Positions 5,680-58,163 of a DNA stretch of 64,000 bases are shown one piece after another. The stretch lies in NCBI RefSeq assembly GCF_001685355.1, contig NZ_CP016438.1, forward strand, positions 2,232,001 through 2,296,000, written 5' to 3'. Position 1 is the first letter of the stretch. The number at the start of each line of letters is the position of its first letter. The notes below the pieces were generated by a model that did not search any database, was not told where the DNA came from, and was given only the letters and a program-made list of their open reading frames with translations. Both the position numbers and the translations under genes were made by a program. The DNA comes from Streptomyces lincolnensis. Lineage in GTDB: Bacteria; Actinomycetota; Actinomycetes; Streptomycetales; Streptomycetaceae.

Positions 5680-5854
5680 GGTTTCCCCTCGTTCGAAGCG
5701 TCTTCCGCGCCTGCCGGGCGGAAGGGTCTCGGGTCGATGGTATGCGGCCGTCGCGACGCGTTCCGCCCCGGCACCCCCTGTGTTTCCACAGCCGTCGCAC
5801 CGGTCACGGCGGCGGCTGGGTCACTGTCAGTGGCGGGCCGTATGGTCTGGGGTC

Positions 5855-6952
5855 ATGGAGACGAGCACCGAGGGCGTCGCGGACACCGCCGACGAGGGCA
5901 CCACGCAGGCGGACGAGCCGGCGCCGGACCCGACGGCCCCGCCCACACGCGTGGACACGGCGGACATCCCGGGACCAGCAGCCACCACCGAGGCCGAGAC
6001 CGAGACCGAAGCCGAGGTGCAGCGCCCCGTCGCCATACCGCCCGCCTCCCTGTCCCCCTCCCGTGCGGGCGACTTCATGCAGTGCCCGTTGCTGTACCGG
6101 TTCCGGGTGATCGACCGGCTGCCGGAGAAGCCGAGCGAGGCGGCGACGCGGGGCACGCTGGTGCACGCGGTGCTGGAGCGGATGTTCGACGCCCCGGCCG
6201 CCGAGCGGACCGCGCCCCGCGCCAAGTCGCTCGTCCCCGGCCAGTGGGACCGGCTCCGGGAGTCGCGGCCCGAGGTCGTCGAACTGTTCGCGGACGATCC
6301 GGAGGGCGAGCGGCTGGCGCGCTGGCTGGGTGAGGCGGAGCAGCTCGTGGAGCGCTGGTTCACGCTGGAGGACCCGACCCGGCTGGAGCCGGTCGAGCGC
6401 GAGCTGTTCGTCGAGGCGGTGCTGGACTCGGGGCTGAAGCTGCGCGGGATCATCGACCGCGTCGACGTGGCGCCGACCGGCGAGGTGCGGATCGTCGACT
6501 ACAAGACGGGCAAGGCGCCCCGCCCCGAGTACGCCGAGGGCGCCCTGTTCCAGATGAAGTTCTACGCCCTGGTCGTGTGGCGCCTGAAGAACGTGGTCCC
6601 GCGCCGGCTCCAGCTCGTCTATCTCGGCAGCGGTGACGTCGTGACCTACGACCCCGTCCTCGCTGACCTGGAGCGTGTCGAGCGCAAGCTGCACGCGCTG
6701 TGGGAGGCGATCCGGGAGGCCACCGAGACCGGGGAGTGGCGGCCGCGGCCCACCAAGCTGTGCGGCTGGTGCGACCACCAGGCGCACTGCCCGGAGTTCG
6801 GCGGCACTCCCCCGCCGTATCCGCTGCCCGTGCGGGGCGCCGTGCCGGACGCGGCCGGGGGTCCGGGAGTCGTCCCCCGTGCGGAACAGGCGGTTCCCGT
6901 GAGGGCGGCCGAGTCCGGCGGCGCGCCGCAGGGCAGAATGGGGCCGGACTAG
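5855..6952 (+). CDS. RecB-like PD-(D/E)XK nuclease with Fe-S cysteines
   Basis: This 365-residue protein has the nuclease module found in RecB, AddB and Cas4. The active-site segment runs GIIDRVD ... IVDYKTGK, the Asp and Lys being metal and catalytic residues. The C-terminal cysteines CGWCDHQAHC, with an early FMQCP cysteine, match the four-Cys Fe-S staple of AddB/Cas4 nucleases. No helicase domain is present. The first 60 residues are Thr/Pro/Glu-rich and poorly conserved in type. The ATG sits 9 bases after TATGGT, so the mRNA may be leaderless. It resembles Rv2119 of M. tuberculosis in both type and position. It is coupled to the downstream regulator. Confidence 0.88.
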   Translation: METSTEGVADTADEGTTQADEPAPDPTAPPTRVDTADIPGPAATTEAETETEAEVQRPVAIPPASLSPSRAGDFMQCPLLYRFRVIDRLPEKPSEAATRGTLVHAVLERMFDAPAAERTAPRAKSLVPGQWDRLRESRPEVVELFADDPEGERLARWLGEAEQLVERWFTLEDPTRLEPVERELFVEAVLDSGLKLRGIIDRVDVAPTGEVRIVDYKTGKAPRPEYAEGALFQMKFYALVVWRLKNVVPRRLQLVYLGSGDVVTYDPVLADLERVERKLHALWEAIREATETGEWRPRPTKLCGWCDHQAHCPEFGGTPPPYPLPVRGAVPDAAGGPGVVPRAEQAVPVRAAESGGAPQGRMGPD

Positions 6953-6966
6953 CGAAGGAGACTTAC

Positions 6967-7638
6967 GTGGCCATCCGCGTCCTACTGGTCGACGACCAGC
7001 CGCTGCTGCGCACCGGCTTCCGGATGATTCTGGAGGCCGAGCAGGACATCGCGGTCGTGGGCGAGGCCGGAGACGGCCTTCAGGCTCTCGACCAGGTGCG
7101 GGCTCTTCAGCCCGATGTGGTTCTGATGGACATCCGTATGCCGCGGATGGACGGTGTGGAGGCGACCCGGCAGATCACCGGTCCCGGGCGGGACGGCCCG
7201 GCCAAGGTGCTGGTGCTGACCACCTTCGACCTCGACGAGTACGTGGTGGAGGCGCTGCGGGCGGGCGCCAGCGGCTTCCTGCTCAAGGACGCCCCGGCCA
7301 ACGAGCTGGTGCAGGCGATCCGGGTGGTGGCGGCGGGCGAGGCGATGCTCGCGCCGAGCATCACGCGCCGGCTGCTGGACAAGTACGCCACGCATCTGCC
7401 GTCCGGCGACGAACCGGTCCCGGACACCCTGCACACGCTCACCGACCGTGAGGTCGAGGTGCTGAAGCTGGTGGCGCGCGGGCTGTCCAACGCCGAGATC
7501 GCCGCCGACCTCTTCGTCAGCGAGACCACGGTCAAGACGCACGTGGGCCATGTGCTGACCAAGCTGGGGCTGCGCGACCGGGTGCAGGCCGCGGTGTACG
7601 CGTACGAGAGCGGCCTGGTGCGTCCCGGCGCCCAGTGA
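6967..7638 (+). CDS. NarL/FixJ-type response regulator, orphan
   Basis: This 223-residue two-domain transcription factor has a receiver domain with the acidic pair VDDQ at residues 9-10, the phosphoacceptor Asp55 in LMDIRMP, and Lys in FLLKDAP. A LuxR-type helix-turn-helix follows (LTDREVEVLKLVARGLSNAEIA, continuing to TTVKTHVGHVLTKLGL). The GTG start has AAGGAG 6 bases upstream and lies only 14 bases after the nuclease stop, so the two genes form an operon. No sensor kinase is adjacent, so its partner must be encoded elsewhere or the protein acts as an orphan. Confidence 0.93.
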   Translation: MAIRVLLVDDQPLLRTGFRMILEAEQDIAVVGEAGDGLQALDQVRALQPDVVLMDIRMPRMDGVEATRQITGPGRDGPAKVLVLTTFDLDEYVVEALRAGASGFLLKDAPANELVQAIRVVAAGEAMLAPSITRRLLDKYATHLPSGDEPVPDTLHTLTDREVEVLKLVARGLSNAEIAADLFVSETTVKTHVGHVLTKLGLRDRVQAAVYAYESGLVRPGAQ

Positions 7639-7656
7639 CCGCACGCGGTACTACGA

Positions 7657-7696
7657 CGAGGAGGGCGTCCCCTGCCTTCGGGGGGCGCCCTCCTCG
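7657..7696. terminator. Bidirectional hairpin between convergent genes
   Basis: The inverted repeat CGAGGAGGGCGTCCCC / GGGGGCGCCCTCCTCG has 16 pairs with one G-U and an 8-base loop. It separates the response regulator from the converging solute-binding protein gene. Confidence 0.75.
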
Positions 7697-7713
7697 CGTG
7701 TGCGGGTTCTCGC

Positions 7714-9294
7714 TCAGGCCTTGCTGAGCTCCCAGAACCGGAACACGGTCGAGGCGTCCAGGCAGTACTCGAGGCCGTAGACGCCCTCGCGGGTGACCGC
7801 GTACTGCTTGGCCTGCCAGACCGGGAGGACGGGCAGGTCGTCGGCGACGATGTCCTGGAGCTTGCCGTAGTCCTCGTCGGTGGCCGAGCGGTCGGACTGG
7901 GCGGCGGTCTGCGGGATCAGCGTGCCGGTGATCGCGCTGTTGGTGTAGTTGTTGCCCAGCACGTTGCCCTTGCCGAAGAAGGGGGCCGTGAAGTTGTCGG
8001 CGTCCGGGTAGTCGGGCACCCAGCCCTTGACGTAGACGCCGTACTTGCCGGCGGCGATGTCCTTCTCGTACTCGGGGAAGGCGACGGACTTGACGTCGGC
8101 GTCGAACAGGCCGCTGTCGTTGAGCTGCTGGGCTATCCCCTTGAGCAGGGCGTCGGTGGCCGGGCCGTAGCGGGCCGGGGTCGACCAGAGGGTCAGCTTC
8201 ACCTTGTCGGTGATGCCGTCGGACCGGAGGGCCTCGGCGGCCTTGGCCTTGGAGGGGCGGGCGCCGTAGGTGTCGAAGAAGGCCGTGTTGTGGCCGGAGA
8301 TGCCGGCCGGGATGATCGAGTACAGCGCGGTGGCCGTGCCCTGGTAGACCTCGTGGATCAGCGCGTCGCGGTCGATCAGGTAGGCCATGGCCTGGCGGAC
8401 GCCGAGCTGTCCGGCGACCGGGTCCTTCATGTTGAAGACGAGGTGCTGGACCTCGGCGCTGCTGCCCTCGACGAGTTCGACGCCGGTGCTGGCTCCGCCC
8501 TTCTCGATCTCGGCGATGTCGTTCGCGCCGAGACCGCGGTAGGCGATGTCGACCTGCTCGTCGACCAGGGCCTTCTTGAGGGCGCTCTGGTCGCCGTGGA
8601 AGAACTTCAGCGTCACGCCGGAGTTGCGTACGTCGGCGGTGCCCTTGTAGTTCTCGTTGACCGAGAAGACGGCCTCGTCGTCGCCGAAGGAGTCCAGCTT
8701 GTAGGGGCCGGAGCCGATCGCCTTGCCGTCCTCGCGCAGCCCCTTCTCGTCGTACTGGGTGTGGTCGACGATGGAGCCGGCGCCGGAGGCGATCTTGCTC
8801 GGGAAGGTCGCGTCGGGCGTGTTGAGGCGGAAGACGACCGTCTTCGCGTCCGGCGTCTCGACCTCGTCGAGCATGGGGAACATGATCGCGGGGCCGGCGT
8901 CGTCGTTGATGTTCAGCATGCGGTCGAAGGAGAACTTGACGTCCTTCGAGGTGAGCGCGTCACCGTTGCTGAACTTGAGGCCGTCGTTCAGGGTGCACTG
9001 GTAGACCTGGGTCCGCGCGTCCGTGAAGGAGCACTTCTTCGCCAGCTCGGGCTGCGGTTCGGTGCTCCCCTTGGGAAAGCTGAGCAGGGACTGGAAGACG
9101 TTGTTGAACAACAGCCAGGAGCCGGGGTCGTAGCCGGACGCGGGATCGGTGGCCAGGACGTCGTCGGACATCCCCATCACCACCGAGGAGCCGGTCCCCC
9201 CGGACCCCCCTGACTCCGTTCCGCAGGCGGTCAACAGGCCGGAGGCCAGTCCTGCCATGATCGGCAGGACCGGCCACTGGGTGCGCATGTTCAC
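7714..9294 (-). CDS. Family-5 (peptide/nickel type) ABC solute-binding lipoprotein
   Basis: The protein has about 526 residues and is an extracellular substrate-binding lipoprotein of the DppA/OppA family. It starts with a lipoprotein signal (LPIMAGLASGLLTAC) and the mature part begins with a Gly/Ser-rich linker. The body shows family-5 signatures such as LNDGLKFSNGDALTSKDVKF and, near the C-terminus, VLPVWQAKQYAVTR. The GTG start is preferred over an ATG two codons later because AAGG lies 9 bases ahead of it. It is a close paralogue of the gene upstream (70 bases apart, same strand). No permease or ATPase genes are next to it. Confidence 0.9.
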   Translation of the reverse strand: MNMRTQWPVLPIMAGLASGLLTACGTESGGSGGTGSSVVMGMSDDVLATDPASGYDPGSWLLFNNVFQSLLSFPKGSTEPQPELAKKCSFTDARTQVYQCTLNDGLKFSNGDALTSKDVKFSFDRMLNINDDAGPAIMFPMLDEVETPDAKTVVFRLNTPDATFPSKIASGAGSIVDHTQYDEKGLREDGKAIGSGPYKLDSFGDDEAVFSVNENYKGTADVRNSGVTLKFFHGDQSALKKALVDEQVDIAYRGLGANDIAEIEKGGASTGVELVEGSSAEVQHLVFNMKDPVAGQLGVRQAMAYLIDRDALIHEVYQGTATALYSIIPAGISGHNTAFFDTYGARPSKAKAAEALRSDGITDKVKLTLWSTPARYGPATDALLKGIAQQLNDSGLFDADVKSVAFPEYEKDIAAGKYGVYVKGWVPDYPDADNFTAPFFGKGNVLGNNYTNSAITGTLIPQTAAQSDRSATDEDYGKLQDIVADDLPVLPVWQAKQYAVTREGVYGLEYCLDASTVFRFWELSKA

Positions 9295-9364
9295 GTAGGA
9301 ATGCCTTGTCGTCGGTGTGCGGGACCCCGGGGCCACCCTCCCCGGCCCCGGGCACGGGAGACTG

Positions 9365-10969
9365 TCAGCCGCTCACACCGCGGCCGAGCTCCCACAGCTG
9401 AAGCGTCGAGGAGGAGTTGAGCGCGTACGCGGTCCCCGTGATGTCGTCGCGTGCGGCCACGTACTGCTTGCCCTGCCACAGCGGGAGGACGGGAACGTCG
9501 GAGGCGACGATGTCCTGAATGTTCGTCAGGCTGGCGGCGGCGGACAGCCGGTCCGACTCGCGGCGGGACTCCGGGATCAGCGTGTTGCGGATCTGGCTGT
9601 TCACGTACGGCGAACCGATGGTGTTGTCCTTGTCCAGGAACGGCGCGAGGTAGTTGTCGGCGTCCGGGAAGTCGGGGAACCAGCCCATGCCGTAGACGTC
9701 GTACTCGCCCTTCTTCTCGGCGGGACGGAAGGTCGACCAGGGGGCGCCCTCGATGCCGACGCGGAACAGGCCGGTGTCGTTGAGCTGCTTCTTGAGCACC
9801 TCGAACTCCTGCTTGGTGGCCGGGCCGTAGTGGTCGGTCGTGTAGTGCAGGGTGAGCTTCACCGGGGTGGAGATGCCGGCCTTGGTCAGCAGGGACTTGG
9901 CCTTGGTGACGCTCGGCTCGCCGTACTCGTTGAAGAACGAGTTGGAGTGGCCGGTGATGCTGGCCGGGACCATCGAGTACAGCGGCTCGGCCTGCGAGCC
10001 GTAGACCTTGGCGACGAGTTCGCTGCGGTTGACGACCTGGGCCATCGCCTCACGGACCGCCCTGGACTTCACGGACGGCGCGTCGGTGTTGAAGCCGAGG
10101 TAGCGGATCTCCAGGCCGGGCAGTTCGACGAGGTCCACGTCACCGCCGGTCTCGTTGCCGAGCTTGGTGATCTGCTCGGGCGACATGGTGCGGGTCATGA
10201 GGTCGATGTCCCCCTTCTCCAGCGCGGCGCCCATGGCGTCCGCGTCCTCGAAGGAGCGCAGGTCGACCTCGTCGTTGTTCACCTTGAGCGTCCCCTTGTA
10301 GTCGGGGTTCTTGGTGAAGACGGCGTCGGCCAGCTCGTCGTTCTTGACGTCGGCCTTCATGGTGTACGGGCCGGAGCCGTTGACGTCGAAGCCGTCGCGC
10401 AGCTTGTTCTTCTCGTAGTCGTCGGGGTTGACGATGCCGGCGACCGGGGTCGACAGCTTGTACGGGAAGGTGGCGTCGGCGGTCTTGAGGTGGAAGATGA
10501 CCTCGCGGTCGCCCTGGGTCTCGACGGTGTCGATGGTGGACAGCAGGGCGAAGACACCGCTGTCGGCCTTCAGGGCCAGGGCGCGCTCGATGGAGAACTT
10601 CACGTCCTCGGCGGTGATGGCCTTGCCGTTCGAGAACTTCAGGCCCTCGCGCAGGGTGCAGGCGTAGCGCTCGTTGCCGGTGTCGGTGAAGCCGCACTTC
10701 TCGGCGGCCTCGGGGACCGGGTCGCCGTCGCCCTTCGGCAGGATCATCAGGGTCTGCACGGTCTGGCGCAGGATGTTCCAGGAGCCGACGTCGTAGGCGT
10801 AGGCCGGGTCGAGGGGGGCGGGGGCGTCGCTCGTGGCGCTGAACCGGTCGGTCGTGCCGACGACGATCGCACCGTCGCTGCCGCTCCCGCCGTCGGACCC
10901 ACCGCAGGCTGCGAGCACCGGTGCGAGCAGACCGATCACGGCCGGCAGCACCAAAGACTTGCGGTTCAT
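9365..10969 (-). CDS. Family-5 ABC solute-binding lipoprotein, tandem paralogue
   Basis: The protein has 534 residues with the lipoprotein signal VLPAVIGLLAPVLAACGGS and a Gly/Ser-rich linker. It aligns along its whole length with the next gene downstream: TLREGLKFSNGKAITAEDVKF near residue 105, and VLPLWQGKQYVAARDD near the end. It probably binds oligopeptides or a similar ligand at the cell surface and hands it to a transporter encoded elsewhere. The ATG follows CTGGAG. This gene is first in the transcript and has a 456-bp non-coding region upstream, so regulation of the pair probably lies there. Confidence 0.9.
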   Translation of the reverse strand: MNRKSLVLPAVIGLLAPVLAACGGSDGGSGSDGAIVVGTTDRFSATSDAPAPLDPAYAYDVGSWNILRQTVQTLMILPKGDGDPVPEAAEKCGFTDTGNERYACTLREGLKFSNGKAITAEDVKFSIERALALKADSGVFALLSTIDTVETQGDREVIFHLKTADATFPYKLSTPVAGIVNPDDYEKNKLRDGFDVNGSGPYTMKADVKNDELADAVFTKNPDYKGTLKVNNDEVDLRSFEDADAMGAALEKGDIDLMTRTMSPEQITKLGNETGGDVDLVELPGLEIRYLGFNTDAPSVKSRAVREAMAQVVNRSELVAKVYGSQAEPLYSMVPASITGHSNSFFNEYGEPSVTKAKSLLTKAGISTPVKLTLHYTTDHYGPATKQEFEVLKKQLNDTGLFRVGIEGAPWSTFRPAEKKGEYDVYGMGWFPDFPDADNYLAPFLDKDNTIGSPYVNSQIRNTLIPESRRESDRLSAAASLTNIQDIVASDVPVLPLWQGKQYVAARDDITGTAYALNSSSTLQLWELGRGVSG

Positions 10970-47618: not shown

Positions 47619-48365
47619 TCACGCAGAAGCGCGTGCCTTGCGGTAGAGCACGACTCCCGCCAGCAGCGCCCCCGCACCCACCGGAAGCGTGAGGCCCACC
47701 GGCAGGTCGCTGCCGGTGCGGGCGAGCTGCGCCGAGCCGCCGTCGGGCTGGGTGACGGTCTGGGTTCCGGGCTGGTTGCCGCCCGGCTTGCCGCCCTCCG
47801 GCGCGGACGGGCCGGCGGGGTCACCCGGGCTGCCGGGAGGGCCCGCCGGGTCGACCGGTCCGCCGGGCTGCTCCGGAGTGCCGGGGCCACCCGGGTGCTG
47901 GCCACCGGGAGGCGTGCTGGAGTGCCCGCCGCCGCCGTCGCAGTCGTTGCCGGTGGTGCTGTTGCCGACACCGATGACGTCGACGCTGTTGCCGCAGACG
48001 TTCACCGGGGCGTCGACCGGCACCTCGACGTGGTTGCCGGAGCCGACGCCCGGGGAGTCGCCGGTGTGTCCGCCGGAGTGCGAGCCCCCGGAGCCGCCGC
48101 CGTAGCCGTCATCGGTCTCGACGCCGGAGTTGACGCACTTGTTGCCCATCGCCGGGTTGAGCACCCCGATGACGTTGACCGTGTTGCCGCAGACGTTCAC
48201 CGGCGCGTGCACCGGCGCCTGCACCGAGTTGCCCGACAGCACACCGGGCGAGTTCGTGCTGGAACCGTGCGCGCCCGAGTCGGCGTGCGCGGCACCTCCC
48301 GTAGCGGCGATCACGCCGGTCGCGGCAGCCACGGTCATCAGGCCTTTGCGGGTGACCTGTCGCAT
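47619..48365 (-). CDS. chpC: Long chaplin ChpC with sortase signal
   Basis: This 248-residue cell-wall-anchored chaplin coats aerial hyphae and spores and helps them leave the aqueous surface. After a signal peptide there are two chaplin domains (GNSVQAPVHAPVNVCGNTVN and GNHVEVPVDAPVNVCGNSVD, each with two Cys), a Gly/Pro-rich spacer, the sortase E motif LARTG, a hydrophobic helix and basic tail (YRKARAS). The ATG is preferred to the TTG one codon earlier. The order chpC after chpH on one strand is that of SCO1674-SCO1675. Confidence 0.95.
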   Translation of the reverse strand: MRQVTRKGLMTVAAATGVIAATGGAAHADSGAHGSSTNSPGVLSGNSVQAPVHAPVNVCGNTVNVIGVLNPAMGNKCVNSGVETDDGYGGGSGGSHSGGHTGDSPGVGSGNHVEVPVDAPVNVCGNSVDVIGVGNSTTGNDCDGGGGHSSTPPGGQHPGGPGTPEQPGGPVDPAGPPGSPGDPAGPSAPEGGKPGGNQPGTQTVTQPDGGSAQLARTGSDLPVGLTLPVGAGALLAGVVLYRKARASA

Positions 48366-48463
48366 CAATCAATCCCTGCCTTTCGACGTTGTCCCTGAGA
48401 TTTCCGAACACCTATCGAGATCACAAACGTTCTCGGTGCTCGAAAAGAAACCGTTCCGAAAAG

Positions 48464-48538: not shown

Positions 48539-48772
48539 TCACTTGTTGATGCAGGTGTTGCCGAAGGCGGGGTTCAGCAGCCCGATCACGGAGACCGTGT
48601 TGCCGCAGACGTTCACCGGGACGTGAACGGGAACCTGGACCACGTTGCCGGACAGGACGCCCGGGGAGTGCACCGCGGCACCCTGGGCACCCGAGTCGGC
48701 GACGGCCATGCCCGCACCCGCGAGAACCAGACCACCAGTGGCAGCGGCAGCGGCGACGATCTTCTTGATCAT
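48539..48772 (-). CDS. chpH: Short chaplin ChpH
   Basis: The 77-residue secreted chaplin has a signal peptide (KKIVAAAAATGGLVLAGAG) followed by one chaplin domain (GNVVQVPVHVPVNVCGNTVS ... GNTCINK) with the two conserved Cys. Secreted monomers form amyloid fibrils on aerial hyphae. Length equals ChpH of S. coelicolor. The ATG has AAGGAGAGAATA upstream; the open frame extends 16 codons further but the promoter and a hairpin lie there. A candidate sigma-BldN promoter precedes it. Confidence 0.95.
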   Translation of the reverse strand: MIKKIVAAAAATGGLVLAGAGMAVADSGAQGAAVHSPGVLSGNVVQVPVHVPVNVCGNTVSVIGLLNPAFGNTCINK

Positions 48773-48791
48773 TATTCTCTCCTTGTTGGCA

Positions 48792-48850
48792 ATGCGATCC
48801 CAAGTAGCGGATCGCATCACCTGTAACGAGGAGGGAGTAATGGAGCTACG
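48792..48850 (-). promoter_or_regulatory. Candidate sigma-BldN promoter and 5'-UTR hairpin of chpH
   Basis: On the minus strand CGTAGC (48850-48845) and CGTTAC (48828-48823) are 16 bases apart. From memory the sigma-BldN consensus is CGTAAC-N16-CGTTGA, so nine of twelve bases match. Just downstream a perfect 9-bp hairpin ATGCGATCC/GGATCGCAT lies in the leader, about 20 bases before the chpH start. Confidence 0.6.
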
Positions 48851-48929: not shown

Positions 48930-50255
48930 TCAGGACGCGTCGATGAACCGGTCCAGCACCCGCACGCCGAATTGCAGTCCGTCCACCGGCACCCGCTCGT
49001 CGACGCCGTGGAACATCCCGGCGAAGTCCAGCTCCGGCGGCAGCTTCAGCGGCGCGAAACCGAAGCCGCGGATGCCGAGGTCGTCGAAGGACTTGGCGTC
49101 GGTGCCGCCGGAGAGCATGTAGGGGATCGCCTTCGCGGTCGGGTCCTCGGCGAGCAGCGAGGACTGCATCGCCTCGACCAGCGCGCCGTCGAAGGTGGTC
49201 TCCAGGGCCTTGTCGGAGTGCACGTCCTCGCGCCGCACGTTCGGGCCGAGGATCCGGTCGAGGTCGGCGAGGAACTCCTCCTCGTGCCCCGGCAGGAAGC
49301 GCCCGTCGACGTTGGCGGTGGCCTCGCCGGGGATGACGTTGACCTTGTAGCCGGCGTTCAGCTGGGTGGGGTTGGCGGTGTTGCCGAGGGTGGCGCCGAT
49401 CAGCTTGGCGATGCCGCCGAGCCGGGCGAGGGTCGACTCCATGTCCTCCGGGTCGAGCTCGGTGCCGAGCGCGTCGCCGAGTTCGTCGAGGAAGGCCCGC
49501 GTGGTCTTGGTGACGCGCACCGGGAAGGTGTGCCGGCCGAGCCGGGCGACCGCCTCCGACAGCTCGGTGATGGCGTTGTCCCGGTGGATCATCGACCCGT
49601 GCCCGGCGGTCCCGGCCACGGTCAGCTTCATCCAGTGCATGCCCTTCTCGGCCGTCTGGATCAGATAGAGCCGCCGCTCCTCGCTGACGGTGAAGGAGAA
49701 GCCGCCCACCTCGCTGATCGCCTCGGTGACGCCCTCGAAGAGATCGGGATGGTTCCTGACGAGGTGCTTGGCGCCGTACGTGCCGCCCGCCTCCTCGTCC
49801 GCCAGGAAGGCCAGGACGATGTCCCGGGGCGGCTTGCGCCCGCTGCGCATCCGGTCGCGGACGACCGCCAGGGTCATCGCGTCCATGTCCTTCATGTCGA
49901 CCGCGCCCCGGCCCCACACGCACCCGTCCGCGACCTCGCCGGAGAAGGGGTGGTGGGTCCAGTCGACCGCGTTGGCCGGTACGACGTCGAGGTGGCCGTG
50001 GATGAGCAGGGCAGGCCGGGACGGGTCCTCGCCCTCGATGCGGGCCACGGTGGAGGCCCGGCCGGGGTGCGACTCGAAGATCTTCGGCTCCAGGCCGACC
50101 TCGGCGAGCTTCCCGGCGACCCACTCGGCCGCCTTGCGCTCACCCGGGCCCGAGTGGTCGCCGTAGTTGCTGGTGTCGATCTGGATCAGCTCGCGGCAGA
50201 GGTCCACGACCTCGTCCTGACCGGTGACGCCCCTGGCCGTGTCCGTCTCGCTCAC
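48930..50255 (-). CDS. M20-family zinc metallopeptidase
   Basis: This 441-residue cytosolic di-zinc peptidase/deacylase has metal ligands in LLIHGHLDVVPA (His/Asp), GRGAVDMKDMD (bridging Asp), LADEEAGG (catalytic Glu pair) and a late His in GMFHGVDE. A dimerisation domain (AGTAGHGSMIHRD) is inserted. Such enzymes act as dipeptidases, aminoacylases or succinyl-diaminopimelate desuccinylase relatives; here a general M20 carboxypeptidase-type is likely. The GTG start follows a GGGAGGCAGC region. It diverges from the tRNA-Leu gene. Confidence 0.9.
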   Translation of the reverse strand: MSETDTARGVTGQDEVVDLCRELIQIDTSNYGDHSGPGERKAAEWVAGKLAEVGLEPKIFESHPGRASTVARIEGEDPSRPALLIHGHLDVVPANAVDWTHHPFSGEVADGCVWGRGAVDMKDMDAMTLAVVRDRMRSGRKPPRDIVLAFLADEEAGGTYGAKHLVRNHPDLFEGVTEAISEVGGFSFTVSEERRLYLIQTAEKGMHWMKLTVAGTAGHGSMIHRDNAITELSEAVARLGRHTFPVRVTKTTRAFLDELGDALGTELDPEDMESTLARLGGIAKLIGATLGNTANPTQLNAGYKVNVIPGEATANVDGRFLPGHEEEFLADLDRILGPNVRREDVHSDKALETTFDGALVEAMQSSLLAEDPTAKAIPYMLSGGTDAKSFDDLGIRGFGFAPLKLPPELDFAGMFHGVDERVPVDGLQFGVRVLDRFIDAS

Positions 50256-50442
50256 GCTGCCTCCCGCGCTGTCGCTGCTGGTGGTTCCCCCTCATCCTCT
50301 CTCTCCACGGCACCCGGCCCAAGACCGGTCCCGGCCCGTCACAAGCCGTTCACGCGTGGGCGGGGGGTTGATCGGGCGCTCTCGAAAGCCTGGTAATGTT
50401 TCCTTCGTCGCCGCGAGGGAAACCCCGCACGACAGACACCTT

Positions 50443-50527
50443 GTCCGGGTGGCGGAATGGCAGACGCGCTAGCTTGAGGTGCTAGTGCCCTTTATCGGGC
50501 GTGGGGGTTCAAGTCCCCCCTCGGACA
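50443..50527 (+). tRNA. tRNA-Leu (anticodon GAG)
   Basis: A complete 85-base class II tRNA without encoded CCA. Acceptor arms GTCCGGG/CTCGGAC pair with one G-U. The anticodon stem CTAGC/GCTAG closes loop TTGAGGT, with GAG at 50476-50478, reading CUC and CUU. A long variable arm and T-arm (GGGGG-TTCAAGT-CCCCC) are present. It is not bldA, which reads UUA. Confidence 0.95.
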
Positions 50528-50532
50528 CAGAC

Positions 50533-50568
50533 GGCGAAGGCCGCGACCCCCGGGTCGCGGCCTTCGCC
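50533..50568 (+). terminator. Terminator of tRNA-Leu
   Basis: Perfect 16-bp stem GGCGAAGGCCGCGACC / GGTCGCGGCCTTCGCC with a four-base loop, starting 6 bases after the tRNA. Confidence 0.85.
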
Positions 50569-50789
50569 CGTTGTGTGGGGCATCTCTCGTCCGTACGAAG
50601 ATCACCAGGTCAGCCGGGGTGCCGCGGCCCCCGTGCAGGCCTTCCCGGTGGCGGAGTGACCGGCCCGAACCTAGCGTCGTACTAAAATTTCCGGCTTGTT
50701 ACGGAACGGAGCTGGACCCGGACAACCCCAGGCAGACCTGAGGGCCCCGCCAGCGCCCCGGGCTTCCGGGATCGAGACGCGAGGACCCG

Positions 50790-53700
50790 ATGGCAGCCAC
50801 ACACGAGAGCAGCGCTCTCGGTCTGCTCGACGACGAGCTGCGCGAGCGGTTCGGCGACACGGCACGTTTCTCCGGGGGGCCGGCGGCTTCCGCGCGCACG
50901 CTCGTGGACATCTTCGACGCCTCGGTGCGGTCGTATCCGAACGAACTCGCCCTGGACGACGGGACGGCACAGCTCACCTACCGGCAGCTCGCCGTCGAGG
51001 TGGACGACCTGCGGCGCGCGCTGGCCGGTGCCGGGGTCGGTCTCGGGGACCGGGTGGGGGTCCGGGTGCCGTCCGGGACCAACGAGCTGTACGTCGCGAT
51101 CCTGGCCGTGCTGGCCGCGGGGGCCGCGTACGTGCCCGTGGACGCCGAGGACCCCGACGAGCGGGCCGAGTTGGTGTTCGGGGAGGCCCAGGTGCGGGCG
51201 GTGATCGGGGCCGGGTACGAGCTGACCCCGAACGGGCGCTCCGAGGTCCCCGCCGCCCGGCCCGGTGCCGAGCACGACGCGTGGATCATTTTCACCTCCG
51301 GGTCGACCGGGAAGCCCAAGGGTGTCGCCGTCAGCCATCGCAGTGCGGCGGCGTTCGTGGACGCCGAGGCGGCCCTGTTCCTCGCCGAGGAGCCGATCGG
51401 GCCCGGTGACCGGGTCATGGCGGGGCTGTCGGTGGCGTTCGACGCGTCCTGCGAGGAGATGTGGCTGGCGTGGCGGTACGGGGCCTGTCTGGTGCCGGTG
51501 CCGCGCTCGCAGGTCAGGAGCGGGGCCGATCTCGGGCCCTGGCTGGCCGATCAGGAGATCAGCGTGGTGTCGACCGTCCCGACGCTGGCCTCGCTGTGGG
51601 AGCCCGAGCACCTGAACGACGTACGACTGCTGATCTTCGGCGGTGAGGCCTGCCCGCCCGAGCTGGTGCAGCGGCTGGTGACGGAGGGGCGCGAGGTCTG
51701 GAACACCTACGGGCCGACCGAGGCGACCGTCGTGGCCTGCGCGTCGCTGATGAGCGGCGAGGAGCCGATCCGGATCGGTCTGCCGCTGGACGGCTGGGAG
51801 CTGGCCGTCGTCGACGAGGCCGGGGAGCCGGTGCCGATGGGCGGCACCGGGCAGCTGGTGATCGGCGGTGTGGGGCTGGCCCGGTACCTGGACGCCGAGA
51901 AGGACGCGGAGAAGTACGCGCCGCTGAAGTCGCTGGGCTGGGAGCGGGCGTACCGCAGCGGCGACCTGGTCAAGGCGGAGCCCGAGGGGCTGGTGTTCCT
52001 CGGCCGGGCGGACGAGCAGATCAAGCTGGGCGGGCGGCGCATCGAACTCGGTGAGGTCGACACCGCTCTCCAGGCGCTGCCCGGCGTGGCGGGGGCCGCG
52101 GCCGCCGTACGGACCGCGCGCAGCGGCAATCAGCTGCTGGTCGGGTATGTCGTCACCCAGGACGGGTGGGACCACGCGACGGCCGTCGAGAAGCTGCGGG
52201 CCGAGCTGCCCGCCGCGCTCGTCCCGCTGCTCGCACCGGTCGAGGACCTGCCGACCCGCACCAGCGGAAAGGTGGACCGGGCCGCCCTGCCCTGGCCGCT
52301 GAAGGAACTGGAGAACACCGGTCCCGTCGAGCAGCTCTACGGCACCGAGGCCTGGCTCGCCGAGCAGTGGAGCGAGGTGCTCGGCATCCCCGTGTCGAGC
52401 GCGCGGGAGGACTTCTTCGCGATCGGCGGCGGCAGCCTGGCCGCCGCCCAGCTGACCACGCGGCTGCGGACCCGCTACCCGAGCGCCGCCGTCCTGGACA
52501 TCTACCAGCAGCCCGTGCTGCGCAAGCTGGCCCGGCACCTGGAGGAGTCCGCGCAGGGCGACGGGGCCGAGCGGGTCGTGGCGCCGGTTCCGGTGCGCGC
52601 CCAGGTGCTCCAGCTCCTGCTGCTGGTCCCGCTGTTCACGGTGATGGGGCTGCGCTGGAGCGTGGCGCTGGCCGCGCTGGGGAACCTGCTGCCCGGGTAC
52701 GCCTGGCTGCCGACCGCCCCCTGGTGGCTGGTCGCGGCCGGAGCGGTACTGCTGTTCAGTCCGCCCGGCCGGCTCGCGCTCGCCGCGGGCGGGGCGCGGC
52801 TGCTGCTGCGCGGGGTGCGGCCGGGACGGTACGCGCGCGGTGGCGGTGTGCACCTGCGGCTGTGGACCGCCGAGCGGCTGGCCGAGTTCACCGGTGCGAC
52901 CTCGCTGACCGGATCGTGGCTGGAGCGGTACGCGCGGGCGCTGGGCGCCAAGGTCGGTCCCGACGTGGACCTGCACTCGCTGCCGCCGGTCACCGGCATG
53001 CTCAGGCTGGGGCGGGGCGCGGCCGTCGAGTCCGAGGTGGACCTGTCGGGCTGGTGGCTGGACGGCGACCGGCTGGAGATCGGCGCGGTCAGGGTCGGTG
53101 CGCACGCCGTGGTCGGCACGCGCAGCATGCTCTTCCCGGGGGCCCGGGTCGGCAAGCGGGCCGAGGTGGCACCGGGTTCGGCCGTGACCGGCCAGATCCC
53201 GACCGGGCAGCGGTGGGCGGGCGCTCCCGCGGTCAAGCTCGGCAAGGCCAAGCGGAACTGGCCCAAGGAGCGACCGGTGCGGGGCACGTACTGGCGTGTC
53301 ATGTACGGCATCGCGGGCTTCGCGCTCACCGCGCTGCCCGTGCTGGCGGGAGCGGCCGCGTTCCTCGTGGCCCGGGTCCTCTTCACTCCGGACGCACCGC
53401 TGACGGGCGCCGCCCTGGCGCTCGTCCCGGCGACGCTCACCTTCGGGCTGGCGTACGCGCTGCTGCTCCTGGTCGCCGTACGGCTGCTGAGCCTGGGGCT
53501 GCGCGAGGGCACGTATCCCACGCACAGCCGGGTGGGCTGGCAGGCCTGGACGGTCACGCAGCTGATGGACCGCTCGCGCGAGACGCTGTTCCCGCTGTAC
53601 GCGGGCCTGGTCACGCCGGTGTGGCTGCGGCTGCTCGGGATGCGGATCGGGCGGGGCGCGGAGGTGTCGACGGTGCTCGCGCTGCCGAGTCTGACGACGG

Positions 53701-54653
53701 TCGGCGAGGGCGCGTTCCTGGCCGACGACACGCTGACCGCGCCGTACGAGCTGGGCGGCGGCTGGATGCGGATCGGGCGGGCGGAGATCGGGCGGCGGGC
53801 CTTCCTCGGGAACTCGGGGATGACCGCTCCGGGGCGGTCCGTGCCGGACGGCGGGCTGGTCGGGGTGCTGTCGGCGACGCCGAAGAAGGCCAAGAAGGGC
53901 ACGTCGTACCTGGGGCTGCCGCCGGTCAAGCTGCCGCGCAGCACCAGTGGCGGGGACCAGAGCCGGACGTACGACCCGCCGGCGCGGCTGCTGTGGGCGC
54001 GCGCGCTGGTGGAGCTGTGCCGGATCCTGCCGGTGTTCTGCTCGGCGTGGCTTGCGGTGCTGACGGTGGCGGCGCTGTGCGCGCTGGGGTCGCTGTGGGC
54101 CTGGGCACCGCTGCTGTCGGGGCTCGTGCTGTTCGGCGCGGGGATCACGGCCGGTCTGGTGTCGGTGGTGGCCAAGTGGGCGCTCGTCGGCCGGCATCGC
54201 GCCGGGGAGCATCCGCTGTGGAGCGGGTTCGTGTGGCGCAACGAGCTGGCGGACACCTTCGTCGAGGTGCTGGCCGTGCCCTGGCTGGCCGGTGCGGTGC
54301 CGGGGACGCCGGTGATGACGGCGTGGCTGCGCGGGCTCGGCGCGCGGATCGGCAGGGGCGTGTGGGTGGAGAGTTACTGGCTGCCCGAGACCGACCTGGT
54401 GACCCTGGGCGACGCGGCGACGGTGAACCGGGGCTGTGTGCTCCAGACACACCTCTTCCACGACCGGATCTTGCGAACGGATACTGTGGTCCTCCGTGAG
54501 GGCGCGACGCTGGGTCCTGGCGGTATCGTCCTGCCCGGCAGTTCGGTGGGGGCCCGTACGACATTGGGCCCCGCGTCGCTGGTCATGGCCGCGGAGTCCG
54601 TCCCCGACGACACCCGCTGGCTGGGCAATCCGATCGAGGCATGGCGACCCTGA
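50790..54653 (+). CDS. pls: Pls/PosA-type single-module nonribosomal peptide synthetase (epsilon-poly-lysine synthetase-like)
   Basis: The 1287-residue protein has an adenylation domain (FTSGSTGKPKG near 168, NTYGPTEATV near 305, RTSGKVDR near 493) and a carrier domain (FFAIGGGSL near 548). These are followed by about six transmembrane segments interleaved with three tandem soluble domains bearing left-handed-helix hexapeptide features (LFPGARVGKRAEVAPGSAV; VLPGSSVGARTTLG). There is no condensation or thioesterase domain. This is the layout and length (about 1320) of Pls, the membrane enzyme that polymerises lysine through its epsilon-amino group. Specificity residues read by eye give DAESIGTVVK, like lysine codes. 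The ATG has GAGG upstream. The product remains unproven. Confidence 0.85.
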   Translation: MAATHESSALGLLDDELRERFGDTARFSGGPAASARTLVDIFDASVRSYPNELALDDGTAQLTYRQLAVEVDDLRRALAGAGVGLGDRVGVRVPSGTNELYVAILAVLAAGAAYVPVDAEDPDERAELVFGEAQVRAVIGAGYELTPNGRSEVPAARPGAEHDAWIIFTSGSTGKPKGVAVSHRSAAAFVDAEAALFLAEEPIGPGDRVMAGLSVAFDASCEEMWLAWRYGACLVPVPRSQVRSGADLGPWLADQEISVVSTVPTLASLWEPEHLNDVRLLIFGGEACPPELVQRLVTEGREVWNTYGPTEATVVACASLMSGEEPIRIGLPLDGWELAVVDEAGEPVPMGGTGQLVIGGVGLARYLDAEKDAEKYAPLKSLGWERAYRSGDLVKAEPEGLVFLGRADEQIKLGGRRIELGEVDTALQALPGVAGAAAAVRTARSGNQLLVGYVVTQDGWDHATAVEKLRAELPAALVPLLAPVEDLPTRTSGKVDRAALPWPLKELENTGPVEQLYGTEAWLAEQWSEVLGIPVSSAREDFFAIGGGSLAAAQLTTRLRTRYPSAAVLDIYQQPVLRKLARHLEESAQGDGAERVVAPVPVRAQVLQLLLLVPLFTVMGLRWSVALAALGNLLPGYAWLPTAPWWLVAAGAVLLFSPPGRLALAAGGARLLLRGVRPGRYARGGGVHLRLWTAERLAEFTGATSLTGSWLERYARALGAKVGPDVDLHSLPPVTGMLRLGRGAAVESEVDLSGWWLDGDRLEIGAVRVGAHAVVGTRSMLFPGARVGKRAEVAPGSAVTGQIPTGQRWAGAPAVKLGKAKRNWPKERPVRGTYWRVMYGIAGFALTALPVLAGAAAFLVARVLFTPDAPLTGAALALVPATLTFGLAYALLLLVAVRLLSLGLREGTYPTHSRVGWQAWTVTQLMDRSRETLFPLYAGLVTPVWLRLLGMRIGRGAEVSTVLALPSLTTVGEGAFLADDTLTAPYELGGGWMRIGRAEIGRRAFLGNSGMTAPGRSVPDGGLVGVLSATPKKAKKGTSYLGLPPVKLPRSTSGGDQSRTYDPPARLLWARALVELCRILPVFCSAWLAVLTVAALCALGSLWAWAPLLSGLVLFGAGITAGLVSVVAKWALVGRHRAGEHPLWSGFVWRNELADTFVEVLAVPWLAGAVPGTPVMTAWLRGLGARIGRGVWVESYWLPETDLVTLGDAATVNRGCVLQTHLFHDRILRTDTVVLREGATLGPGGIVLPGSSVGARTTLGPASLVMAAESVPDDTRWLGNPIEAWRP

Positions 54654-56068
54654 GCACGGGCCACTCGGAACGGGAGGGCGGTGCACCGAGTCCGAGCGCA
54701 GTGCAGGGAGCAGACGCAGCAGTGACGGTTCAGCAGGCAGTGGGTCCGGATCCGTACTTCCCGGCCAACGGCGACCCCCGTTACCGGGTCCATCGGTACG
54801 AGCTGGCGCTGGACTACCGTCCTGGCCCCAACCGGCTGTCGGGGACGGGCCGGATCAACGCCATCGCGGGACGGTCGCCGCTCGCCGAGTTCGTGCTGAA
54901 CCTCGCCGACTTCAAGGTCGGCCGGGTGCGGGTGGACGGCCGGCAGGCGCACTACACGCACCGGGGCGGGCGGTTGCGGGTGCGCCCGGCCAAGCCGCTG
55001 CGGGCCGGGGCCGCGTTCACCGTCGAGGTGCACTGGGCGGGCAATCCCAAGCCGGTCAACAGCCCCTGGGGCGGCCTTGGTTGGGAGGAGCTGGAGGACG
55101 GGGCGCTGGTGGCGAGCCAGCCCGTCGGGGCGCCGTCCTGGTACCCGTGCAACGACCGGCCCGCCGACAAGGCCTCCTACCAGATCTCCATCACCACGCC
55201 GTCGGCGTACGCGGTGGTGGCGGGCGGGCGCCTGCTGACCCGGACCACGAAGGCGTCGACGACGACCTGGGTGTACGAGCAGTCGGCGCCGACGTCCAGC
55301 TATCTGGTGGGGCTGGCGATCGGCAAGTACCAGACGGTGGTGCTGGCCGACCCGGGTCTGGGCGGGGTGCCGCAGCACGGGCACATTCCGGCGCAGCTGC
55401 TGCCGGAGTTCTCGCGGGACTTCGCGCGGCAGCCGCAGATGATGCATGTCTTCCAGCAGCTGTTCGGGCCCTACCCGTTCGCCGAGTACGCGGTCGTGGT
55501 GACCGAGGAGGCGCTCGATGTCCCCGTCGAGGCCCAGGGGTTGTCGCTGTTCGGCGCCAACCACGTGGACGGGGCGCGGGGTTCGGAGCGGCTGGTCGCG
55601 CACGAGCTGGCCCACCAGTGGTTCGGCAACAGCGTGTCCATCGCGGACTGGCGGCACATCTGGCTGAACGAGGGGTTCGCGAAGTACGCGGAGTGGCTGT
55701 GGTCGGAGCGCTCGGGCGGGCGTCCGGCGCACCAGCACGCGGCCGCCGCGCACCGGTTGCTGTCCTCGCTCCCCCAGGACCTGCGGCTGGCCGACCCCGG
55801 GCGCAAGTCGATGTTCGACGACCGGCTCTACGAGCGGGGCGGGCTGACCCTGCACGCGCTGCGGTGTGCGATGGGCGAGGACGACTTCTTCCGGATGCTG
55901 CGCGGCTGGGCCGGGCTGCACCGGGGTGGGGCGGTGAGCACGACGACGTTCACCGCGCATGTGAACCGGTTCGCGTCCGAGCCGCTGGACGAGGTGTTCC
56001 AGGCGTGGGTGTACGGGGCTGCGCTGCCGCCCCTGCCCCGCCTGCCGGAGACCCGCCGGGCGGGATAG
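54641..56068 (+). CDS. M1-family zinc metallopeptidase coupled to the synthetase
   Basis: This 475-residue metallopeptidase of the aminopeptidase N family has the zinc motif HELAHQWFGN near residue 320 with the third ligand Glu in WLNEGFAKYAEW. The N-terminal beta domain starts about residue 50 (YRVHRYELALDYRPG). The usual GAMEN exopeptidase motif appears changed to DVPVEAQG, so N-terminal binding may differ. It lacks the large C-terminal domain, so it is half-length for M1. Its start lies 13 bases inside the synthetase gene, giving coupled translation; a poly-lysine-trimming role is inferred. No signal peptide is evident. Confidence 0.88.
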   Translation: MATLSTGHSEREGGAPSPSAVQGADAAVTVQQAVGPDPYFPANGDPRYRVHRYELALDYRPGPNRLSGTGRINAIAGRSPLAEFVLNLADFKVGRVRVDGRQAHYTHRGGRLRVRPAKPLRAGAAFTVEVHWAGNPKPVNSPWGGLGWEELEDGALVASQPVGAPSWYPCNDRPADKASYQISITTPSAYAVVAGGRLLTRTTKASTTTWVYEQSAPTSSYLVGLAIGKYQTVVLADPGLGGVPQHGHIPAQLLPEFSRDFARQPQMMHVFQQLFGPYPFAEYAVVVTEEALDVPVEAQGLSLFGANHVDGARGSERLVAHELAHQWFGNSVSIADWRHIWLNEGFAKYAEWLWSERSGGRPAHQHAAAAHRLLSSLPQDLRLADPGRKSMFDDRLYERGGLTLHALRCAMGEDDFFRMLRGWAGLHRGGAVSTTTFTAHVNRFASEPLDEVFQAWVYGAALPPLPRLPETRRAG

Positions 56069-56214
56069 GAGCGTTCGGCGCGGTTCGGGAACCGCTGTCC
56101 GAACAGCCCCCTTGAGCTGGGCTTACGTGTTCGGCGTCGGACTGGTTCGATGCTGCGCCGGACACGGCTTCCTCCGGGCCAGTCTGGTGTCACCGACCAG
56201 TCCAGGAGGACGCC

Positions 56215-56407
56215 ATGAAGAAGGTCATCACGCTGCGAACCGCGGTCATCATGGGGGCGGCGATCGCAGCCGGTTCCGCGGCGGGCGGTGTCGTGGAGAC
56301 GATGTCCGACCTCGCGGAGGCGGGGCCCGTGGTCACCGGGGCGGTGACGCTCTGGTTCGCGAAGGGCACGGCGGTCGGCCGGACCCCCTCCCGGCACAAT
56401 GGTGTCC
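56215..56407 (+). other. Possible small membrane ORF without a nearby stop
   Basis: An ATG with a perfect AGGAGG site 6 bases upstream begins MKKVITLRTAVIMGAAIAAG, with Streptomyces-type third-position GC for about 60 codons and a hydrophobic helix. The frame has no stop before 57375 and would run through the YchJ-like gene and antisense to the GntR gene. I infer a real small protein of about 60 residues whose stop was lost or misread, but this is uncertain. Confidence 0.35.
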
Positions 56408-56797
56408 ATGTCCCGACGTGCCGCCCTCTCCGCAGCCTGCCCCTGTGGCCTTTCCGAGCCGTACGCCACCTGCTGCGGCCGCTACCACTCCGGTGCCGCG
56501 GCGCCGACCGCGGAAGCGCTCATGCGGTCGCGGTACAGCGCCTTCGTGAAGGGGAACGCGGGGTATCTGCTGCGGACCTGGCATCCGCGGACGCGTCCGG
56601 CGCGGCTCGACCTCGATCCGGGGACGCGGTGGAGCGGGCTGGAGATCCTCGGCACGGCCGACGGTTCCGCGTTCCACACCACGGGGGTCGTGGAGTTCCG
56701 GGCCTCGTTCAAGGGCGGCGCGCTGCACGAGCGCAGCCGCTTCGAGCGGGTCGACGGTGCCTGGGTGTACGTCGACGGGGAGTTCCCCGACGCGTAG
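56408..56797 (+). CDS. YchJ/UPF0225 SEC-C-motif protein
   Basis: The 129-residue protein is of the YchJ family. The N-terminal CPCGLSEPYATCCGRYHSG is a SEC-C-like zinc motif (CxC...CC). The rest is the conserved family domain with an NTF2-like fold (ALMRSRYSAFVKGNAGYLL, ending YVDGEFPDA). Function is unknown. Three in-frame starts lie close together; I chose ATG 56408, which sits 9 bases after CACAAT and suggests a leaderless transcript. The stop is only 2 bases from the end of the converging GntR gene. Confidence 0.85.
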   Translation: MSRRAALSAACPCGLSEPYATCCGRYHSGAAAPTAEALMRSRYSAFVKGNAGYLLRTWHPRTRPARLDLDPGTRWSGLEILGTADGSAFHTTGVVEFRASFKGGALHERSRFERVDGAWVYVDGEFPDA

Positions 56798-56799
56798 GG

Positions 56800-57501
56800 C
56801 TACGGCGCCAGGATGTCCAGCTCCTGGAGTGCGCCGACGGTGATCTCGCGGGTCAGTGCCTCCGCGCGCATCGCGTCGCCCCCGCGGACCGCCTCCGCGA
56901 CCTGGACGTGCAGGGTGACGGCGGCCGGGTCGGGGTCCTCGAACATGACCTCGTGATGGGTGCGGCCGGCGAGGACCTCGGCGACGACATCGCCGAGGCG
57001 GGCGAACATCTCGTTGCCGGAGGCGTTGAGGATCACCCGGTGGAAGGCCACGTCGTGGATCAGATAGCCCTCCAGCTGGTGGCCGCGCGAGTGGGCGACC
57101 ATGCCGAGGGCGCACTCGGTGAGCTCGGCGCACTGCTCGGCCGTGGCGTTCTTGGCGGCCAGGCCCGCGGCGACCGGCTCGATCGCGGAGCGCAGCACGG
57201 TCAGGGAGCGCAGCTGGCGGGGGCGGTCGGCGCCGGCCAGGCGCCAGCGGATGACCTGGGGGTCGTAGACGTTCCACTCGGCCGTGGGGCGCACCGTCAC
57301 GCCCACGCGGCGGCGGGACTCGACCAGGTGCATGGACTCCAGGACCCGGACCGCCTCGCGCATCACCGAGCGTGAGACCTCGAAGCGCTGCGCCAGTTCG
57401 TCGGTGCGCAGAACGCTGCCCGGCGGGTACTCGCCCGCGGTGATCGCGGGGCCGAGGATCTCCAGTACCTGGCCGTGCAGCCCCCGGCCCGATGTGCTCA
57501 T
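56800..57501 (-). CDS. gntR: GntR/FadR-type regulator of gluconate genes
   Basis: The 233-residue regulator has a winged helix (GEYPPGSVLRTDELAQRFEV, then SRSVMREAVRVLESM) and a C-terminal FCD domain with His-metal ligands (HDVAFHRVIL, TLHVQVAEA). It is divergent from gntK-gntP-SDR-idnD and so probably represses them until gluconate or its phosphate binds. S. coelicolor has the same arrangement (SCO1678-1681, from memory). A palindrome in the intergenic region is a candidate operator. ATG start with no strong ribosome site. Confidence 0.92.
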   Translation of the reverse strand: MSTSGRGLHGQVLEILGPAITAGEYPPGSVLRTDELAQRFEVSRSVMREAVRVLESMHLVESRRRVGVTVRPTAEWNVYDPQVIRWRLAGADRPRQLRSLTVLRSAIEPVAAGLAAKNATAEQCAELTECALGMVAHSRGHQLEGYLIHDVAFHRVILNASGNEMFARLGDVVAEVLAGRTHHEVMFEDPDPAAVTLHVQVAEAVRGGDAMRAEALTREITVGALQELDILAP

Positions 57502-57535
57502 GCACTCAGCGTACGGGGCACGTCACGGGAAGAAA

Positions 57536-57546
57536 AAGTCAGACTT
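57536..57546. promoter_or_regulatory. Candidate GntR operator
   Basis: The 11-bp palindrome AAGTC-A-GACTT lies in the AT-rich stretch between gntR and gntK, 35 bases from the gntR start. It suits a FadR-type regulator site but is short, so chance is possible. Confidence 0.4.
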
Positions 57547-57644
57547 ATTTATGTCGGGGTCTTGAATTCGTCGTACCTAATGGGTTTCAGTGTGGCCGAC
57601 GTCAGATGTCGACGTCGGATGTCGAGGAAGACAGCGAGGCAGTG

Positions 57645-58163
57645 ATGAGTACCCCTCACGTCGTCGTGGTGATGGGCGTCGCCGGCACGGGCAAGACCAC
57701 GATCGGTCCCCTGCTGGCGGGCCGGCTGGGCGTCCCGTACGCCGAGGGCGACGACTTCCACCCGCAGGCCAACATCGACAAGATGTCGGCCGGCACGCCG
57801 CTTCAGGACGCGGACCGGTGGCCGTGGCTCGACGCCATCGGTGACTGGGCGCACGGGCGGGCCGGGCTGGGCGGGGTGGTCAGCTGCTCGGCACTGAAGC
57901 GGTCGTACCGCGACCGGCTCAGGGCCGCCGCTCCCGGAGTGACGTTCGTGCACCTCACGGGCGACCGGAAGCTCATCGAGGACCGGATGGCGCACCGCAA
58001 GGGCCACTTCATGCCGACGGCCCTGCTGGACTCGCAGTTCGCCACGCTCCAGCCGCTCGGGCCGGACGAGGCCGGGGTCGCCGTGGACGTCTCCGGAACC
58101 CCCGAGGAGATCACCGAGCGCGCGACGAGGGCGCTGGACGCCCTTCCCGACGCATCCGAGTAA
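57645..58163 (+). CDS. gntK: Gluconokinase
   Basis: This 172-residue P-loop kinase converts D-gluconate and ATP to 6-phosphogluconate, feeding the pentose phosphate pathway. Walker A is MGVAGTGKTT near residue 11, with substrate-binding EGDDFHPQANIDKMSAG and the Arg/Lys lid DRMAHRKGHFMP. Length is typical. The ATG with GAGG nearby was chosen over longer in-frame starts lying in the operator region. It is first in a catabolic operon. Confidence 0.95.
   Translation: MSTPHVVVVMGVAGTGKTTIGPLLAGRLGVPYAEGDDFHPQANIDKMSAGTPLQDADRWPWLDAIGDWAHGRAGLGGVVSCSALKRSYRDRLRAAAPGVTFVHLTGDRKLIEDRMAHRKGHFMPTALLDSQFATLQPLGPDEAGVAVDVSGTPEEITERATRALDALPDASE

Follow-up and report, generated by a model that had tools for sequence, protein, structure and literature searches.

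What polymer, if any, does the gene pair pls–M1 of Streptomyces lincolnensis make, and what would the second enzyme do to the product of the first? The pair lies in a stretch of 64,000 nucleotides of contig NZ_CP016438.1 (hereafter the window), where a gene for a large single-chain synthetase, pls, overlaps a downstream gene for an M1 metallopeptidase. Using a combination of profile and domain matches, alignment of the substrate pocket, surveys of related loci and maximum-likelihood trees, we arrive, with a probability of about 0.85, at a pls–pldII-type operon in which Pls would make the antimicrobial epsilon-polylysine and the M1 enzyme would hydrolyse it, most likely in the cytoplasm. The profile score, a pocket identical to that of S. 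albulus Pls, the conserved pairing, the published pls–pldII operons and the product of the Corynebacterium variabile Pls together indicate that the operon is most likely a common one of the ordinary epsilon-polylysine kind and not a new polymer system.

The window synthetase is a full-length protein of the Pls/PosA type. Its single open reading frame is as originally predicted, and both Pfam and TIGR02353 bear out the predicted order of an adenylation domain, a carrier domain and a membrane terminal domain (Table 1), and none of the Pfam matches at E<=0.001 is to a condensation or a thioesterase domain. The match to TIGR02353 ('Pls/PosA family') scores 841.5 bits, about twice the cut-off (423.1), and a match to the C-terminal part of AMP-binding enzymes at residues 422-494 falls slightly below its cut-off. 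Hydrophobic clusters at residues 596-630, 837-867, 873-905 and 1072-1133 emerge from a plain hydropathy scan, which is crude in that it also flags residues 99-120 inside the soluble adenylation domain. The best match in the PDB is 7WEW, the adenylation domain of the S. albulus epsilon-polylysine synthase (E 4e-192), and the Pls of one related locus, L011, is 97% identical to that of the window.

Aligned to PheA (1amu) and to 7WEW, the window pocket reads DAESIGTVVK (D218, A219, E222, S261, I282, G284, T306, V314, V315 and K494, the last in the C-terminal subdomain), reproducing the code that had first been read by eye. For this alignment the PheA piece was verified against 1amu, which fixed its numbering from position 235, and was aligned with the window, 7WEW and 100 related loci; the code is identical in the window, in 7WEW and in 95 of the 100 loci. 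The lysine reference given in the original prediction, DAESIGSVCK, was slightly off, the sequence of the S. albulus structure reading DAESIGTVVK instead. Four distant homologues (L097-L100) carry other codes, DFECLSVVTK in two of them and DFECLSAVTK or DFEYFGTVTK in the others, and one pocket was unreadable, that of a split gene (L096, from genome G180) of which the C-terminal part alone was used. In this locus, as in G140:C1:8264171-8268032, the two halves of pls lie in different open frames, which may reflect sequencing errors.

A maximum-likelihood tree of 63 Pls rows, with the four distant homologues as its outgroup and built by a quick method with the Shimodaira–Hasegawa-like approximate likelihood ratio test (SH-aLRT) as its only support measure, divides the family into two parts. 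The S. albulus branch has 11 rows, 7WEW and 10 full sequences; its support is 90, and the 10 rows that remain when the Streptantibioticus sequence is set aside have 100. A larger branch of 48 rows (support 98) holds the window, Kitasatospora and other actinomycetes. The window Pls falls in a group of 23 rows with the Pls of Kitasatospora (100% SH-aLRT), its closest row being that of Streptomyces lincolnensis L4. It falls nearer the confirmed Pls than the outgroup, where the sole confirmed row is 7WEW, an adenylation domain that fills 37% of the tree columns, and the outgroup is called poly-diaminobutyrate/poly-diaminopropionate-like (PDAB/PDAP-like) from its pocket and identity. The bracketing of the window between confirmed enzymes comes in part from PMC8117764, which covers the Pls of C. 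variabile and the confirmed Pls of Kitasatospora aureofaciens (AZL89021), both absent from our tree.

The best-described relative is the S. albulus system (Pls BAG68864), where pls and pldII are reported to form an operon with a 4-bp overlap (PMC4361855), in agreement with the earlier statement that a degrading enzyme is encoded nearby there. The window shares with it the domain order, the pocket code and an overlapping downstream M1 gene, but its adenylation domain is 65.5% identical to 7WEW, its Pls belongs to a different branch, and its overlap is of 13 bases rather than 4. In C. variabile, a host of another family, Pls is reported to be 51% identical to that of S. albulus and, as in the window, to share an operon with a peptidase gene; expressed in S. 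coelicolor M145, it gave epsilon-polylysine of 26-35 residues (PMC8117764). The Kitasatospora-type Pls, the nearest relatives outside the window's Streptomyces subclade, likewise have an M1 neighbour but occupy another chromosomal position.

This pairing is widely conserved. Across the 80 named loci, the best 80 of at least 595 in the scan, the M1 gene always lies directly downstream of pls (80/80), its first matched base falling between -45 and +200 from the pls end. Of 199 sampled Streptomyces genomes, one of them the window's own, a Pls match at E<=1e-100 is present in 79, and in 76 of these an M1 gene adjoins on the same strand; the exceptions are G150, where the contig ends, and G048 and G121, where no M1 gene adjoins. 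The G048 locus (L093) is a Pls-type match, and in G121 (G121:C28:4144-6186) the match is confined to query residues 609-1283, in the terminal domain. Six more matches in the sampled Streptomyces, at 33-37% identity, belong to the distant branch; the fetched stretches of four of them (L097-L100) hold no M1 match, and three of the four are informative, the contig of L097 ending about 0.5 kb past the gene.

The M1 gene itself was confirmed, together with the exact 13-base overlap that had been proposed. Start codons at a 13-base overlap are found in 35 of the 96 readable sequences (101 in total) and at a 4-base overlap in 32, with zero offset in 3 and other arrangements in 26, the presence of a start codon at an overlap being no proof of its use. 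Two loci stand in here for S. albulus pldII, L087 and L088, whose adenylation domains are 93.6% and 89.3% identical to 7WEW; both have the 4-base overlap of the S. albulus operon as reported, and the M1 gene of each, at 467 codons plus a stop, matches the 1404 bp reported for pldII (PMC9223678). The HExxH-x18-E zinc site is intact in all 98 operon M1 sequences, window included, a sample made up of the 101 Pls rows less five without M1 plus two plasmid loci. Among solved structures the short window enzyme comes nearest to 6A8Z and 6IFF, which are likewise short zinc metalloproteases and that we take to be M1dr of Deinococcus radiodurans, and we know of no link between an M1dr-type enzyme and a polymer synthetase.

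The missing export signal of the M1 partner may be the point that a specialist would not expect. Each of the 98 operon enzymes was taken to begin at its first start codon from -45 onward, counted from the pls end, and its first 45 residues were judged by motif and hydropathy alone, on these chosen start codons. In the S. albulus branch a twin-arginine motif is present in all eight enzymes, with a strongest 12-residue hydropathy mean of 1.73-2.43, whereas the motif occurs in none of the 90 operon M1s outside that branch, the window's included, where the mean is 1.47 at most and 0.91 in the window. Twenty-one Streptomyces M1 paralogues, five of them from the window's own genome, all reach at least 1.70 by a looser measure that admits as many as 75 residues ahead of the core. 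Because it has neither the motif nor a comparable hydrophobic stretch, the window M1 is probably cytoplasmic. In a tree of 67 M1 rows (46 of the 98 operon enzymes and the 21 paralogues) the operon M1s form one group (99% SH-aLRT), inside which the eight rows of the S. albulus type stand opposite the other 38; this tree drew a long-branch warning, and its chosen outgroup is not one side of any branch. The simplest reading, which depends on the root, would be that exported enzymes are ancestral and that a large branch including the window lost the signal. We consider it somewhat better than an even chance that in most actinomycete pls operons, the window's among them, the degrading enzyme lost its export signal and is a cytoplasmic guard or recycler, S. 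albulus PldII being the exception. The combined explanation is set no higher than the probability given at the outset, since its missing-signal part depends on chosen start codons and on how the M1 tree is rooted.

The alternative that survives best, though we judge it unlikely, is that the window M1 is exported and trims or self-protects as described for S. albulus PldII. Its type is the sister group of enzymes that all bear the twin-arginine motif, and PldII is reported to lie outside the membrane (PMC9223678, PMC9205021); yet the motif is missing from the window enzyme and from the other 89 outside the S. albulus branch, and their hydropathy maxima stay below the range of the eight that have it. 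A limited literature search turned up no account of a PldII export signal, of which an earlier description may exist: the words 'signal peptide', 'twin' and 'Tat' are absent as whole words from the main text of PMC9223678, and in the same limited search the literature on intracellular degrading enzymes yielded nothing on PldII location. As for what the enzyme does, reports on the role of the S. albulus degrading enzymes conflict, a review describing unchanged production and chain length in a strain without both (PMC8506220) and another study longer chains and lower tolerance upon repression of PldII by CRISPR interference (PMC9223678). Of the operon of synthetase and trimming enzyme proposed in the original prediction, a lysine-polymer Pls with an M1 partner is supported, and the trimming less well so, given these conflicting reports and the lack of a visible export signal. 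Trimming by the window M1 seems doubtful because it would require access to exported polymer, and internal protection or lysine recovery would be favoured because a cytoplasmic enzyme reaches internal chains only.

Considerably less probable is that the M1 protein is a general aminopeptidase that adjoins pls by chance. M1 enzymes are broad, the genome holds five further M1 genes (32-40% identity) plus two weaker matches, and the net charge of the window M1 core (+2), like that of operon M1s at large, which are by median less acidic than the paralogues, does not point to a surface adapted to a polycation. Against chance adjacency stand the separate grouping of the 46 operon M1s from the 21 paralogues, subject to the long-branch warning, and the retention of the gene beside pls in several actinomycete families, often with overlapping starts. 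The idea that an acidic surface on the M1 enzymes would betray a polycation substrate was itself rejected, none being seen in the net charges. Least probable of all, another cationic homopolymer (PDAB, PDAP, poly-ornithine or poly-beta-lysine) as the product would fit a broad family in which PosA and the diaminobutyrate and diaminopropionate synthetases share the same adenylation, carrier and membrane terminal domains and some members may make still unreported polymers (PMC10522769), but the second pocket position of the window is the alanine (Ala219) reported for Pls and lysine rather than the methionine of PosA and ornithine or the phenylalanine of PDAP/PDAB synthetases (PMC10522769), the distant homologues with DFE-type codes are 34-37% identical to the window and show no M1 match in their stretches, PDAP/PDAB genes are reported from a different gene context (PMC8117764), and the lysine 2,3-aminomutase gene that is reported to mark epsilon-poly-beta-lysine synthetases when it lies next to them (PMC10522769) is absent from the neighbouring genes scanned, which were part of the window's open reading frames.

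If the pair is indeed an epsilon-polylysine operon, Pls would activate L-lysine with ATP in the cytoplasm through its DAESIGTVVK pocket and load it onto the carrier domain, and the membrane-bound terminal domain would link the lysines by epsilon-amide bonds and release the resulting epsilon-poly-L-lysine to the outside. The M1 peptidase, whose start overlaps the end of pls, would most likely hydrolyse epsilon-polylysine and most likely act in the cytoplasm on unexported or re-entered chains, serving self-protection and lysine recovery.

Several points weigh against this picture. The pairing is not universal: a plasmid-borne pls of Rhodococcus opacus has no M1 neighbour, and no M1 match lies within the fetched stretches of G048 and of a Streptantibioticus locus. 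A limited literature search found no product data for the strain or its subclade, and many pls genes may be silent, since C. variabile itself is reported to have made no epsilon-polylysine in culture and its gene none in C. glutamicum (PMC8117764). Non-classical export may apply to the window M1, and both the reported location of S. albulus PldII and the net charges of the operon M1s, described above, belong on this side as well.

Upstream of pls lies a conserved element, TAGCGTCGTACTAAAATTTCCGGCTTGTTACGG, which 12 of 101 rows, the window's among them, have in full and which matches at 22 or more of its 33 positions in 26 of 101, against a random background of at most 19 in 200 random window stretches. 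These counts are an undercount, the scan having been placed by open-frame start, and L008 and L010 show the element in the alignment only. The S. albulus-type loci L085-L092 score 15-16, at background level, and so differ from the window in having no match to it. Because the native promoter is reported to be critical for production in S. albulus (PMC8117764), we regard the element as a candidate control site of pls. A TAAAAT box within it could be a -10 site. A regulon sharing the element was rejected, the genome holding one copy at <=3 mismatches.

The flanks of the operon are those named beforehand, with chaplin genes and tRNA-Leu(GAG) on the left and gluconate genes on the right; the long and the short chaplin genes are presumably chpC and chpH. 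The chaplin, M20 and tRNA-Leu flank recurs in 30 of the 80 named loci, with 0.25-4.5 kb from the tRNA to the pls match, gntR lies downstream in 25 and both flanks are present in 24, some contigs being cut. For a pls-free comparison, 15 genomes below the Pls threshold were searched for gntK and 12 were fetched; in 10 of the 12 the tRNA and gntK share one stretch, and the gap from tRNA to gntR is about 0.45 kb in two and 2.8-11.5 kb in six, two having no gntR match. The region after tRNA-Leu(GAG) is a variable slot (window 50529-56398; L117-L128). Its content varies among Streptomyces from pls–M1 through a GH95 glycosidase, amino acid permease, carbohydrate kinase or PGA_cap gene to nearly nothing.

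An insertion beside tRNA-Leu had been proposed for the pair, which holds only in the sense of a variable slot; a recent insertion is unlikely because the pair sits on the same left flank in those 30 named loci and the 9.5 kb downstream contain neither a repeat of the tRNA 3' end (>=12 bases) nor a 14-base tRNA match. Of eight open reading frames from the slots of three pls-free genomes, five matched the families of GH95 glycosidases, amino acid permeases, zinc dehydrogenases, PGA_cap proteins and carbohydrate kinases and three had no Pfam match, with no integrase among these eight; recent insertion by a mobile element was accordingly rejected on these two negatives. The expectation that S. coelicolor lacks the pair agrees with PMC8117764, which states the absence of pls for strain M145. 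Two open reading frames, 48972-50396 (+) and 56215-57375 (+), were rejected as genes, having no Pfam match and lying where the M20 (-), YchJ-like (+) and GntR (-) genes are.

Table 1. Features of the pls locus and its surroundings, in window coordinates.
Feature	Position	Strand	Remarks
Long chaplin gene, chpC position	47619..48368	-	Left flank
Short chaplin gene, chpH position	48539..48820	-	Left flank
M20 peptidase gene	48930..50255	-	Conserved left flank
tRNA-Leu (GAG)	50443..50528	+	Left border of variable slot
Conserved upstream element TAGCGTCGTACTAAAATTTCCGGCTTGTTACGG	50672..50704	+	Last 27 bases single in genome, <=3 mismatches
pls, putative epsilon-poly-L-lysine synthetase	50790..54653	+	1287 residues; adenylation domain, carrier domain, membrane terminal domain
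Adenylation domain core, residues 42-365	50913..51884	+	AMP-binding Pfam match
Carrier domain, residues 522-584	52353..52541	+	Residues 546-550 (GGGSL) include the serine expected to bear phosphopantetheine
TIGR02353 terminal domain, residues 606-1282	52605..54635	+	With hydrophobic clusters
Overlap of pls and M1 gene, 13 bases	54641..54653	+	Exact
PldII-type M1 metallopeptidase, 475 residues	54641..56068	+	Pfam M1 91 bits; no export signal seen
HELAH-x18-E zinc site, M1 residues 321-344	55601..55672	+	HExxH-x18-E intact
YchJ-like gene	56399..56797	+	Right of operon
GntR-family regulator	56800..57501	-	Conserved right flank
Gluconokinase gntK	57492..58163	+	Conserved right flank

Elsewhere in the same genome, a second, split Pls-like system was seen (L081, 7918000-7932000, at 4703-9489 on the - strand). 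It consists of an 884-residue protein, in which a full TIGR02353 domain is joined by a weak match of carrier type but by no adenylation domain, and of a separate adenylation-carrier protein with the pocket DIWQSTADDK; its neighbours include an SbnB-type diaminopropionate gene and an open reading frame with weak dioxygenase-type matches. Its product would possibly be a diaminopropionate-containing cationic polymer made in trans.

The pls–M1 operon adds this strain, and with it roughly 4 in 10 Streptomyces genomes (the 79 of 199 with a related Pls match), to the possible producers of epsilon-polylysine. The split in export signals among the M1 enzymes turns the disputed question of trimming versus protection into a comparison of two enzyme types. 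If the division holds true, a cytoplasmic M1 enzyme would be the usual partner of Pls, and S. albulus PldII, on which the picture of trimming and self-protection is based, would be the exception.

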